A DNA stretch of 64,000 nt. Source: Herbinix sp. (lineage in GTDB: Bacteria; Bacillota; Clostridia; Lachnospirales; Lachnospiraceae). Below are positions 32,852-54,658 of the stretch, piece by piece. Both the position numbers and the translations under genes were made by a program. The DNA lies in contig JAQZBD010000001.1 in assembly GCA_029239235.1 (NCBI GenBank), positions 1 to 64,000 on the forward strand, given 5' to 3'. Each line of letters starts with the position of its first letter. Within the stretch, counting starts at the first letter, position 1. Under the pieces are notes generated by a model. That model saw only the letters and a program-made list of their open reading frames with translations. It did no database searches and was not told the DNA's origin.

Positions 32852-33032
32852 TTTTCTTTCTCAATTAAACTATTTTATGGATGAATCAAGAATAAATCTT
32901 TATATTATTTGATCTATGGGATACCCCATAAACTCACTTCTTCTTATTATAACAATATGATTTGAGTAAGAAGAATCAATGCAATTATATAAGAATATGA
33001 TTAGAGCACAATTGCCTACATTAACCTAAAGC

Positions 33033-33172
33033 GGTGAAACTGGGTGCATCTATATCCATATGGGCGAAGACCGGGTCTCCCGTGATTGCCTGCACTTTGC
33101 AATCATGGGCATGTTTACAGAAGCAAGCTTCTGCGGCGAGCCCAGGTGGATATAGATGCACCCAGTTTCACC
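33033..33172. repeat. Long-stem structured intergenic element, copy A
   Basis: Perfect 26-bp arms GGTGAAACTGGGTGCATCTATATCCA / TGGATATAGATGCACCCAGTTTCACC around a conserved core. Confidence 0.9.
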
Positions 33173-33232
33173 TCACAGCCTAAATCTAACACATTTAACA
33201 CTCAAATCATATTAATATAGTACAAAGTCTTT

Positions 33233-44062: not shown

Positions 44063-44126
44063 ATCAATCTCACTTCCTACAAACTATATAAGATTCATAT
44101 GTCAAGAATCTCAATAATACTACAGC

Positions 44127-44246
44127 GATGAATCAGTGTGTATATGTATTCAGATGGCGCAGACCGGCATCTTGTGATTGCCTGCATTTGGCAAGCACAG
44201 GATGGTAAGGCAAGTCCAGATGAATGCATATACACACTGATTCATC
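44127..44246. repeat. Long-stem structured intergenic element, copy B
   Basis: 26-nt arms GATGAATCAGTGTGTATATGTATTCA / TGAATGCATATACACACTGATTCATC (25 WC pairs and one G-U). Confidence 0.9.
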
Positions 44247-44287
44247 TCACTACATAAACCTAAGTTAAACATGAATCCTATAACCCA

Positions 44288-48183: not shown

Positions 48184-49941
48184 CTAACGATAATTTTGTA
48201 TCATTAACTGAAGAGTCTTAAAGCCATTATACTCGTTAATCTTAGGAAAATAGGTCACCGAAATTGTGGCATTCACTCCTCTGCCTGTTTTCATCTTCCT
48301 GGCTTCCTCTTCTCCATAGGTTTTACTAATATATGCAAAAAATTCATTTACGTCACCGAAGTAGACCGCATCCATTTCTCTTCCGTATTTGTTCTCAACT
48401 CTGAGTCGTAAACCGTTCCCACTCTTCCCTATTATAAAGGCAGATCGAATCTTTAAATCCTTTTCGGCAAAGAGCGGCTTCTCGTTACCTTTACCAAAGG
48501 GCTCCAGAACCTTAAGCTCATTTACAAGCTGCTCGTTGATAAACCCCAGTGGTAAATGGATATCAATCGTAACCTTGGGAACCAGCATGTCATCCGTGAG
48601 TAAGGTATTCTGATTTAAGGTCGTCCGTAAAAGCTCAACATTTTCGGGAAGCAGTGAAAGTCCTGCCGCCATGGGATGACCTCCCATCTTCAAGAACAAA
48701 TCCCGGCAGCCTGATAATTCCTCAAACATATTATAAACTTCAATCGAGCGCCCTGAGCCTTTTACTCCATGTTCCGCATCCGTTAATACGATAGCCGGCT
48801 TATTATATCGCTCACGCAGCCTGCCGGCAATAATACCTGCAATACTTTCATGACAATCACATAAATGCACTACCAATACCTTATGGTCTTTAATTTCGCT
48901 CTCTTCAATAATTGCAATCGCTTTCTCTACATTTTCAGCGGTCATATTCTTTCGGAGTTCATTTAAGCTTTTCACTTCACCGGCAAGACGAATCGCTGCT
49001 TCTTCATTATCTGAAAGTAATAATTCTAATCCCTTTTTCGCAGTATCCAGTCTACCGGAGGCATTCAGGCAGGGTCCAATGACAAAGCCTAAATGAAAAG
49101 CACTTAACTGTTCCTTATCAACAGCGCAAACCTCCATAAGAGCATTTAGTCCTCGGTTTTTTGTCCTTTTTAACAGCTCCAAGCCATGTTTTACAATTAC
49201 ACGGTTTTCACCGATCAGTTCCATAACATCGCAAACCGTTGCAATTGCCACATAGGATAGCAATTCCTCAGCAAACGCTTGATTGTCGCTCATTGTAAAG
49301 TCATTTAGCAGCGCCATCGATAATTTATAGGCAACTGCTGCACCGCACAGACCTTTAAAGGGATATTGGCAATCTGACCGCTTTGGATTAATCACCGCAT
49401 CTGCACTGGGAAGTATGGGATTTCCCTCTTCTAATTGCACCAGACTATGATGATCCGTAACGATTACGGTCATGCCAAAGGATTTCGCCTTTTCAATCTG
49501 CTCCAGCGCTGCTATTCCGTTATCACAGGTGATGATCGTATCTATTCCCGCTTCGTAGGCAGCTTCCACCATGTTGATATTAATCCCGTATCCGTCCTTG
49601 ATACGATCTGGAATCTCATAATCGACCCTGGCTCCCAGTCTTGTGAAGGTCTGATACAGTACATACGTCGCCACTACACCATCCACATCATAATCGCCGA
49701 TGATTCTGATTCGTTTCTCCTCTTGCAGCTTATTCTTAAGAATTGCACAAGCCTCGGGCAAATCTTTTAATAATAAGGGCTCTCCAAGCTGTTCTAACCC
49801 CGGATGCAGGAATTTTTGCATGTCCTCTACCTTTTCAAAGCCCTTATTAACCAAACAGCGGGCAATTACTTCGCTAATACCGCACTCCTGCATTATTAAT
49901 TGAAAATCTGCCTTTTTATTTTTTAATACCCAATTTTCCAT
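48184..49941 (-). CDS. recJ: Single-stranded-DNA-specific exonuclease RecJ
   Basis: IIGDYDVDGVVATYVLY, VTDHHS, GPCLNASGRLDTA, GGHPMAAGLSL. Confidence 0.95.
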   Translation of the reverse strand: MENWVLKNKKADFQLIMQECGISEVIARCLVNKGFEKVEDMQKFLHPGLEQLGEPLLLKDLPEACAILKNKLQEEKRIRIIGDYDVDGVVATYVLYQTFTRLGARVDYEIPDRIKDGYGININMVEAAYEAGIDTIITCDNGIAALEQIEKAKSFGMTVIVTDHHSLVQLEEGNPILPSADAVINPKRSDCQYPFKGLCGAAVAYKLSMALLNDFTMSDNQAFAEELLSYVAIATVCDVMELIGENRVIVKHGLELLKRTKNRGLNALMEVCAVDKEQLSAFHLGFVIGPCLNASGRLDTAKKGLELLLSDNEEAAIRLAGEVKSLNELRKNMTAENVEKAIAIIEESEIKDHKVLVVHLCDCHESIAGIIAGRLRERYNKPAIVLTDAEHGVKGSGRSIEVYNMFEELSGCRDLFLKMGGHPMAAGLSLLPENVELLRTTLNQNTLLTDDMLVPKVTIDIHLPLGFINEQLVNELKVLEPFGKGNEKPLFAEKDLKIRSAFIIGKSGNGLRLRVENKYGREMDAVYFGDVNEFFAYISKTYGEEEARKMKTGRGVNATISVTYFPKINEYNGFKTLQLMIQNYR

Positions 49942-49959
49942 GCAGCCTCCAATTTGTTT

Positions 49960-51381
49960 CTATTCCTCTGCTGCTTTAAGCATAATAGCACATTCCACAC
50001 GTTTTTTCTGAAGCTCACAGCCAATATCATAAGCATCATTAATATCACCATGGAATTTAAAGGAGTTTGCTGCACATCCGCCGCTGCAATAGAATTTTGC
50101 AAAACAATCCCGGCATTTATCTTTGGAATATACATTACAATGCTTAAAATCCTGCACCATGTCCGGTGTCTTCACACCTTCGAACACATTTCCCATCAGA
50201 TATTGTTCTTCTCCAACAAACTGATGACAGGGATACAGATCTCCCCATGGGGTCACTGCCAAATATTCTGTTCCTGAGCCACAGCCGGACAAGCGCTTCG
50301 CAACACATGGACCTCCGGAAAGATCTATCATAAAATGGAAGAAATTAAAATCCTTTCCTTCCTTTTTATACTCTAGCATCAGCTTTGCCAGCTTATCATA
50401 TTCCTCATATAGCTTTGGCAGATCTTCTTCCTTAATAGCATAGGGCTCTTCCGGCAATGCAACTACCGGCTCCACGGAAATCTGCTTAAAGCCCAGGTCA
50501 GCAAGATGCTTTACATCCTCACTAAAATCCAGATTATTATGAGTAAAGGTACCTCTCACATAATAATTGGTCTGATTTCTGCTTTCTGCAAGCTTTTTAA
50601 ATTTAGGAACTATGAGTTCATAGCTTCCCCTACCATTCCTGCTTGGGCGCATCTGATCGTTGATTTCCATACGTCCGTCGATACTGAGTACCACATTACT
50701 CATTTCCTGATTAGCAAATTCCATAATGTCATCATTCAGTAATACCCCATTTGTTGTCAGGGTGAAACGGAACTTCTTATTATGAGATTCTTCCAGCCCT
50801 CTACCGTATTTGACAAGATCCTTCACCACCTGGAAATTCATTAAAGGTTCCCCGCCGAAGAAATCCACTTCCAGATTTCTTCTTTTCCCTGAATTTGCAA
50901 TTAGAAAATCCAAGGCCTGTTTTCCAACTTCATAACTCATCAATTCTCGATGCCCTTTATATTCTCCCTCTTCTGCAAAGCAATATCTGCAGGCCAGGTT
51001 ACAATCATGGGCAATATGTAGACATAGAGCTTTCACTACTGTAGAACGTGATTTGAAATCCTTAATATAATTCTCATAGATATCCTGAGTAAATAAGGCA
51101 CCCTCTTGTTTCAGCTGTTCTACATCCTCAAGCACTTCATTAATCAAGTTAACCAGTGCATCTTTTTTATTCTCAAAACCTGTTATCTCTTCCTGTGAGA
51201 GAATTTCATCCAAAAGCTCTGCCTGACTATACTTTTCAAGCATTGCCGCTGCAATCTCTTCCCGCCCATTGTTTTCGTACATTCCGATGATATCATATGC
51301 CAAATCGTCAACTACATGAACCATTCCACTATTAACATCTAATACGATATTGTATCCATTATTTTTATACTGATGAACCAC
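49960..51381 (-). CDS. scfB: Thioether cross-link-forming SCIFF peptide maturase (radical SAM/SPASM)
   Basis: CNLACRYCFAEEGEYKGHRELMSYEVGKQALDFLI, FFGGEPLMNF, CRDCFAKFYCSGGCAAN; adjacent SCIFF precursor. Confidence 0.94.
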   Translation of the reverse strand: MVHQYKNNGYNIVLDVNSGMVHVVDDLAYDIIGMYENNGREEIAAAMLEKYSQAELLDEILSQEEITGFENKKDALVNLINEVLEDVEQLKQEGALFTQDIYENYIKDFKSRSTVVKALCLHIAHDCNLACRYCFAEEGEYKGHRELMSYEVGKQALDFLIANSGKRRNLEVDFFGGEPLMNFQVVKDLVKYGRGLEESHNKKFRFTLTTNGVLLNDDIMEFANQEMSNVVLSIDGRMEINDQMRPSRNGRGSYELIVPKFKKLAESRNQTNYYVRGTFTHNNLDFSEDVKHLADLGFKQISVEPVVALPEEPYAIKEEDLPKLYEEYDKLAKLMLEYKKEGKDFNFFHFMIDLSGGPCVAKRLSGCGSGTEYLAVTPWGDLYPCHQFVGEEQYLMGNVFEGVKTPDMVQDFKHCNVYSKDKCRDCFAKFYCSGGCAANSFKFHGDINDAYDIGCELQKKRVECAIMLKAAEE

Positions 51382-51912: not shown

Positions 51913-52209
51913 TCTTCTACCTCCTTAACATCAATTAACTTCTTGTAATTATATCATAAGTATTTTCATAAGAAAAGAGTTTTTTGTAATAAAGACACAT
52001 TTCAACCAATTTAGGGATTTTTTTCAAAAGATGATTCAGGTGTTATAAGTCAAAGATCAAAATTATATTTTTAGAAAGGCATATTGTAACAGCTAGGTAT
52101 AGTATGATATAATATATGATATCGTAATTAAAACTACTTGAATTTCATTTGAAGAATCTAAAATTTAAGATCTTTCAGAATTAACATAAGAAAGGATTGG
52201 TATAATACA

Positions 52210-53079
52210 ATGAACAAATATATCATTACTACCGATACGACATGTGATTTACCAGAGGATTATGTCCAACAGCATAACATCGGCGTACTTCCCCTTTATT
52301 ACAATATGAATGGAACCGTATACGGAGAAGGAAATGTCCTGGAACCAAAGACGTTTTATGATATTATGCGAGGAGGAGCAATGCCTACAACAATGGCAGT
52401 TAATCCTGATATAGCACGTAAAGTATTTACCCGCTTCCTTGATGAAGGCTATGATATACTGCACATCGCTTTTTCTTCTGCATTAAGCGGAAGCTGCTCC
52501 GTAGCCGGGACTGTTGCAAGAGAGCTATGTGACGAACGTGCGAATGCCAAAATTATTGTAATTGATTCTCTTTGTGCTTCCCTTGGTGAAGGTCTTCTGA
52601 TACACAAGGCTGTGATGTTACAAGAGGCTGGTAAGACTCTTGAAGAAACTGTGGAGTGGCTTGAGGCCAACAAATTAAATCTGTGCCACATGTTTACCGT
52701 AGACGATTTGCATCATTTGCATCGTGGCGGGCGTGTATCCAAGGCTACTGCCATTATCGGCACTCTAATCAATGTTAAGCCGGTTCTACATGTTGATAAT
52801 GAAGGACGACTGATTCCTTTGAACAATGTAAGAGGCAGAAAAAAAGCTTTAATATCTCTAGTTGATACCATGGGCGAGAAGATTAAGAATTATTCCGGCA
52901 CGAATGATATCATTTTCATTAGTCATGGTGATTGTCTTGAGGATGCACAATTTGTTGCAGATCAGATTAAAGAGCGCTTTGGTATTAATAACTTCTTGAT
53001 TAGCTATGTTAGTCCTACCATCGGAGCACATTCCGGACCTGGTACGGTAGCATTGTTCTTTATGGGAAGTCAAAGATAG
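52210..53079 (+). CDS. DegV family fatty-acid-binding protein
   Basis: IITTDTTCDLPEDY, AFSSALSGSCSVA, DSLCASLGEGLLI, HRGGRVSKATAIIGTLINVKP. Confidence 0.94.
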   Translation: MNKYIITTDTTCDLPEDYVQQHNIGVLPLYYNMNGTVYGEGNVLEPKTFYDIMRGGAMPTTMAVNPDIARKVFTRFLDEGYDILHIAFSSALSGSCSVAGTVARELCDERANAKIIVIDSLCASLGEGLLIHKAVMLQEAGKTLEETVEWLEANKLNLCHMFTVDDLHHLHRGGRVSKATAIIGTLINVKPVLHVDNEGRLIPLNNVRGRKKALISLVDTMGEKIKNYSGTNDIIFISHGDCLEDAQFVADQIKERFGINNFLISYVSPTIGAHSGPGTVALFFMGSQR

Positions 53080-53457: not shown

Positions 53458-53712
53458 TCATCTCACACCCTTTCTATTAACACTTTAAAATCCATCTCTC
53501 GCTTTTTAACAATGATATATTAATAAAGCCTACTTTTATTGTCTCACCATTTACTGAATTTATGTGAATTTTTCTTTCCTCATTTTTCAATTTTCGCTAT
53601 AAAATGACTTTAATTATGATATTAAGGCCAAAATCTTCTTTACTCAACCTCGCTGAATGTATACGCATTTATTATATGGTTTGCCCGACAAATGCCTTTC
53701 TAAGACTAGCGC

Positions 53713-53835
53713 AGTGAATATGGGTGCATATATATCCATATGGGCGAAGACCGGGCCTCCCGTGATTGCCTGCACTCGGCAATCATGGGATGTTAAAGGC
53801 GAGCCCAGGTGGATATATATGCACCCATATTCACT
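53713..53835. repeat. Long-stem structured intergenic element, copy C
   Basis: Perfect 26-bp arms AGTGAATATGGGTGCATATATATCCA / TGGATATATATGCACCCATATTCACT. Confidence 0.92.
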
Positions 53836-53872
53836 TCACACCCTAAATCTCGTACATTTGACGCCAAAATCA

Positions 53873-54658
53873 TTATATAGTATATTCCAACTGCGGCTGG
53901 GAACTAGCCAAATGCAATTTTTCAAGAATAACACCGCGTATCGACAAAAACTCCGATCCTCCACGGTCACGAGGATGTGACAGTTTGATGTTCATTATTT
54001 CACTAATCTTACCTGGACGTGGTGTCATAATGACAATCCGGTCACTTAGATAAATCGCTTCATCCACATCGTGGGTCACAAGTATCATGGTTGCATCATT
54101 TTCTTTGCGAAGCTCCAATAGTTTATCCTGAATGTCTGCCCGGGTAAAGGAATCAAGCGCTCCCATCGGCTCATCGAGAAGCAGTGCCTTCGGCTTATTA
54201 ATCAGCGCACGTGCAATTGCTACTCGTTGTGCCATACCGCCGCTGATCTGATGGGGAAAGGCCTTCTCAAAGCCGTTTAATCCGATCAAATCAATATAGT
54301 GAACAACCTGACTTTTGTTTTGCCGGTAGACACGCCTTGCCTTCAAGCCTGTAGCAATATTTTGTTCCACTGTCAGCCAGGGGAATAATCCGCCTTGTTG
54401 AAAAACATACCCTCTTTGGGGATCTGGCTCCGTGATTTCCTGTCCGGCAAGTGTTAGTAGCCCGGTCTCCGGCAAATCAAGTCCGGCAATAAGACGCAGC
54501 AAGGTCGTTTTCCCGCATCCGGAGGAGCCGATGATTGACACAAATTCACCGCGTTTAACGGTAAGATTAATATCCTTTAGCGCTTCCACCGTATTGTCTT
54601 TATCATCTATATAGGTGCGGTTAACATTTTTGATTTCTATAATTGTATCATTCTCCAA
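53873..54658 (-). CDS. ABC transporter ATP-binding protein (nitrate/sulfonate/taurine family)
   Basis: [50 protein letters not shown]. Confidence 0.93.

Follow-up and report, generated by a model that had tools for sequence, protein, structure and literature searches.

A putative MITE-like transposable repeat with a folded hairpin module in Herbinix and related Lachnospiraceae

The 64,000-nucleotide stretch of Herbinix sp. DNA analysed here (hereafter, the window) contains three intergenic long-stem hairpins, copies A, B and C (Table 1), which probably belong to a non-autonomous, MITE-like transposable repeat found in Lachnospiraceae of the Herbinix/Anaerocolumna type. The repeat carries a folded passenger module, which would most likely serve the element itself. 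The fold is spread by transposition and is not a fixed host RNA gene. The original prediction, which placed a structured 3'-UTR RNA, a MITE-like element and a processing or termination element side by side, is partly supported. It was correct in the positions of the three copies and of their 26-nt arms, in the compensation of all four arm differences between copies A and C (positions 1, 7, 8 and 18), in the single G.U in the arms of copy B, in the shared orientation of the copies, in the small insert of copy A and in their location downstream of minus-strand stop codons. The arms are as it described, but the repeat runs past them up to terminal inverted repeats (TIRs).

Table 1. Positions of the repeat copies, their parts and related sites. 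Coordinates without a contig handle are those of the window.
Feature	Position	Strand	Remarks
Copy A, whole element, left to right TIR	32999..33208	+	subtype A, long form; TIR boundaries GATTAGAG...CTCAAATC
Copy A, left arm	33033..33058	+	26 nt
Copy A, core	33059..33146	+	nearly invariant strands flanking the apical hairpin
Copy A, optional side hairpin	33118..33133	+	CAGAAGCAAGCTTCTG; mark of the 140-nt subtype
Copy A, right arm	33147..33172	+	26 nt
Copy B, whole element	44092..44277	+	subtype B; GATTC...GAATC ends seen in the sequence
Copy B, left arm	44127..44152	+	
Copy B, right arm	44221..44246	+	single T.G wobble
Copy C, left target-site duplication	53671..53677	.	ATTATAT
Copy C, whole element	53678..53871	+	subtype A, short form
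Copy C, left arm	53713..53738	+	
Copy C, right arm	53810..53835	+	
Copy C, right target-site duplication	53872..53878	.	ATTATAT; includes the TTA stop codon (53873-53875) of the minus-strand ORF 53873-54658
Empty site	49941..50030	.	orthologous intergenic region; element in G321 (C36:75848-75995), none in the window
Shared-site pair 1	L098 (G321:C2:128588) and G327:C178:8216		
Shared-site pair 2	L110 (G324:C27) and L114 (G301:C1:1714863)		
Members of the 70-105-bp class	L211 (G000:C86:1550-1654), L219, L220, L221		

The genome of the window (G000; 4.97 Mb, 345 contigs) shows many relatives of copy A by blastn. Searched with a covariance model made from 28 of these relatives, it yielded about 62 distinct copies, so that the count of three stands for the window and not for the family. 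A congener (G321) contains about 60 copies, and the element is present in 12 of the 34 genomes of the genus, the ten besides these two with fewer copies each. A sample of 299 genomes of the family added just two more carriers, with one copy each. A pattern search of contigs found 74 stretches; the named carriers among the relatives are Herbinix sp. and Anaerocolumna sp., together with Clostridiales/Bacillota bins. A Holophagaceae stretch (L275) was rejected as an apparent chance match within G+C-rich coding sequence, and the viral contigs searched gave no match to the element. The unit is about 190-300 bp long and shows two subtypes. Subtype A, to which window copies A and C belong, has 123 or 140 nt between the arm ends, and subtype B contains some 30 copies besides copy B. 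About ten copies share the extra hairpin of copy A, and genomes G170 and G324 show an optional hairpin like it.

In the conserved layout, the outer inverted repeat is followed, after a spacer, by a variable stem of 20-26 bp, then by an internal loop and by an apical stem that is again variable. The internal loop is asymmetric and almost invariant, with GGCGNAGACCGG opposite AAGGCRAGYCC; in subtype B the loop strands are AGATGGCGCAGACCGGC and AAGGCAAGTCCAGATG, with one variable column, and across 25 B copies the core is nearly invariant while the arms and the apical stem vary. In other species the apical stem ranges from almost nothing up to a branched 150-nt form, and the core recurs with different stems in Anaerocolumna and G170. 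In a kink-turn, two helices are joined by a 3-nt bulge and the tandem G.A pairs that come after it; the strand G-N-A-G-A-C-C opposite G-G-C-R-A is similar to this arrangement, but not every type has A.G as the second sheared pair. Tandem units like CACAGCCTAAACC are found directly 3' of the right arm in L020 (G000:C258:2213), L128 (G321:C51:15724) and L009.

The folding of the element is real. Arm sequences are distinct in 153 of 154 copies, with a Watson-Crick share of the arm pairs of about 95-98%, and the fold of copy C has a z of -10.5, none of 200 shuffles being as good. In a set of 28 copies (27 A-type and window copy B), 99.2% of the cells pair against 91.7% after shuffling, and 20 pairs show double changes against 7.1 shuffled (0/500). 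The corresponding values for 25 B-type copies are 97.4% against 84.5%, and 32 pairs against 13.9 (0/500). The covariation is also above every register slide, and extends far beyond the three copies from which it had been proposed (covariance model from 28 copies, 500 shuffles). An existing Rfam family was also looked for and none matches: with the Rfam 15 covariance models the element gave only sub-threshold matches, mostly to eukaryotic miRNA hairpins. The only match in the window, away from the element, is a cobalamin riboswitch (RF00174, 36711-36930, + strand, 65 bits).

Outside the hairpin lie TIRs of about 20 bp, with the consensus GATTCGAGTGTCAWAAGTC and up to 26 bp perfect, which are clearest in G303, G324 and some B copies and degenerate in many subtype-A copies. 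Direct repeats of 6-8 bp immediately outside GATTC...GAATC were found in 17 of 73 copies, against 1.9 expected from 300 shuffled pairings (maximum 6). Comparison of G321 with the genome of the window revealed empty sites, one of them inside the window; the one at G000:C312 was recognised by visual inspection. Most insertion sites differ from one species to another. Two sites are each occupied in two genomes, every copy being of the subtype of its own genome (shared-site pairs in Table 1), by either hotspot insertion or within-genome homogenisation. TIRs, target-site duplications, an empty site and unshared insertion sites together indicate a MITE-like transposable repeat with a structured module, and bear out the MITE-like option of the original prediction: the element shows the features of a MITE, namely TIRs, target-site duplications, short, non-coding and numerous dispersed copies, and empty sites. 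Two observations had been named beforehand as contrary to a plain novel structured RNA, transposition footprints and loss of covariation beyond the three copies; the footprints were found, but the covariation was not lost. Among the four transposase types searched in relatives (ISL3, IS256, DDE_Tnp_1 and IS1182), none has matching ends, and no autonomous partner was found among them; the genome of the window has no match to any of these types despite its many repeats. None of the unpaired TIR matches checked is accompanied by a second, well-matched TIR at the spacing expected of a transposon.

The hairpin is probably maintained in place after insertion, which is favoured by its retention despite poor TIR pairing and by the conserved core. 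Among 96 copies with near-random TIR pairing, 87 retain at least 15 of 16 matched inner-arm positions, and across 41 G321 copies the column conservation is 30-60% in the right terminal repeat and mostly at least 90% through the core. Low TIR pairing is partly inherited and not decay since insertion, because the TIRs of subtype A are inherently poorer. The invariant core amid varying stems, the tolerance of G.U on one strand described below and the survival of the hairpin with poorly matched ends make the module look functional.

Three other explanations share parts of this evidence. According to one of them, the hairpin would belong to the 3'-UTR of the upstream gene as a regulatory or stabilising RNA, acting in processing, termination or mRNA protection, which was spread by transposition and then domesticated. 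Elements are often inserted beside stop codons: in G000 as well as in G321, where the gene to the right is antisense, its stop codon lies a median of 25 nt from the end of the model. In the tandem gene pairs of these two genomes, the + strand is antisense to the abutting gene in 69 cases and sense in 14. Both findings, and the retention of the core in situ, speak for such an RNA. However, the strand that tolerates wobbles is the one opposite the mRNA. Counting A.C on the + strand as G.U of the opposite strand, the arms show G.U against A.C on the + strand in a ratio of 83:22 (p = 2e-9), 49:21 after collapsing repeats of one state within a genome (p = 0.001) and 33:1 in the aligned B arms; a looser arm scan that includes the core region gives a weaker bias (215:113), and the conclusions here are based on the counts from the arms alone. 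The TIRs show no clear strand bias (26:18). Relative to the commonest pair of each column in the 28-copy pair table, the wobbles include C-to-T as well as A-to-G changes, which no single mutational bias explains. Since the folded strand is antisense to the usual neighbour gene, selection of the fold in the mRNA is argued against. In addition, the sites mostly differ between species, a canonical terminator is found at only one of the 69 tandem-gene copies by a simple scan that misses AT-rich ones, and no T run follows either arm end in the three window copies. The 3'-UTR RNA and the terminator on the neighbouring mRNA, both put forward in the original prediction, are therefore disfavoured, and the domesticated form of this explanation is unlikely. 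Equally unlikely is that a strand-specific recombinase or transposase acts on the folded single-stranded DNA, as happens at integron attC sites or IS200/IS605 ends. Integron attC sites follow stop codons and show a variable stem with a conserved shape in which the template strand folds; the present element resembles them in its one-strand wobble bias, in a folded strand that is the template strand of the neighbour gene just past the stop codon, and in stems that are strict in pairing and tolerant of sequence. Sites of the attC type are recognised by paired RYYYAAC / GTTRRRY core boxes, but these are absent from the hairpin base, which reads ACTAACGC / TCACAGCCTAAA by eye. The copies are also single and dispersed, without cassette arrays, and show instead TIRs and 6-8-bp target duplications, which are signs of double-strand DDE-type transposition.

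The remaining explanation is a neutral palindrome, in which the arms would be matched solely via template-switch correction during replication and the fold would not be selected. The 60 compensated pair-type events divide into 39 of the transversional and 21 of the transitional kind (35% transitional), near the 2:1 ratio of random pair replacement, and mismatched intermediates are few; compensated differences occur in the TIRs too. In rRNA, 61% of the instantaneous compensatory changes are transitional, and template switching, for which the mechanism is documented, has been argued as a source of compensated stems (PMC8794818). The excess of transversions and the scarcity of mismatched intermediates suggest that template switching helps to match the arms, and we infer that it contributes to arm matching inside the palindrome. 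The earlier argument that compensation implies selection therefore holds in that the arms covary, but the transversional double changes point to DNA template switching as a co-cause. Template switching is not the whole cause: it would make the two sides of the internal loop alike, yet the loop remains asymmetric and almost invariant, and it does not predict the strand bias of the wobbles. Other genera, moreover, have the same pairing and core, and a purely neutral palindrome is very unlikely.

In the preferred reading, a transposable repeat with a module serving the element, the folded + strand, either as RNA or as single-stranded DNA, would present the internal loop to a putative protein, and this loop-recognising protein may help the element to spread or persist. 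Mutations in one arm would be re-matched largely through template switching in the palindrome, and mispaired copies would be removed. Host gene regulation is unnecessary to explain the element; the invariance of the core and the retention of the hairpin in poorly ended copies could nevertheless reflect a host function instead of element persistence. A more far-reaching version, which is rather unlikely, would make the module a new class of transposon-borne RNA or single-stranded DNA, in which the stems diversify per copy, the invariant loop is bound by a dedicated predicted protein and the action is opposite the gene that it follows.

Several known repeats resemble the element. Correia/NEMIS, RUP, BOX and ERIC are likewise short, palindromic, mobile intergenic repeats that can fold once transcribed. 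To our knowledge their copies share arm sequences, whereas the present arms differ per copy around an almost fixed loop, a comparison made by description. REPINs and the REP elements mobilised by RAYT are also dispersed, short, hairpin-forming repeats, presumably moved in trans, but REPs are 20-40 bp long with tag sequences at one end, whereas the present elements are about 200 bp long with TIRs and target duplications (PMC3116915, PMC3733652). In the Bacillus cereus group, bcr1 and its relatives are 100-400 bp long and, like the present element, intergenic, MITE-like, in tens of copies per genome, confined to one group and often in UTRs (PMC6542083, PMC3446304). TTTAT motifs and the B. cereus group are characteristic of the bcr elements, whereas the present elements show TIRs of about 20 bp with duplications of 6-8 bp, and arms that pair well and are distinct in each copy around an internal-loop core that is conserved; the two are set apart here by description.

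Since the folded element is in this case a transposable repeat, covariation alone is no proof of a host RNA gene. The family, in which the strand bias can be measured and almost all of the roughly 150 copies differ in their arms, provides a rich bacterial data set to separate selection of the fold from template-switch correction. Should the core bind a protein, this would reveal a new factor for mobilisation or persistence in cellulose-degrading Lachnospiraceae.

The same terminal repeats are found in other arrangements. A second class of mobile repeats, 70-105 bp long, contains them with a short inner stem and without the core loop (Table 1). At window positions 52033-52051 (+ strand), upstream of the gene 52210-53079, a terminal repeat (GATTCAGGTGTTATAAGTC) stands alone with no hairpin beside it, and may be a solo end or the remnant of an element. 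In L218, from position 214 (G303:C31:44114), the same left terminal repeat is followed by a different long hairpin of roughly 130 bp, which suggests that these ends carry several unrelated interiors.
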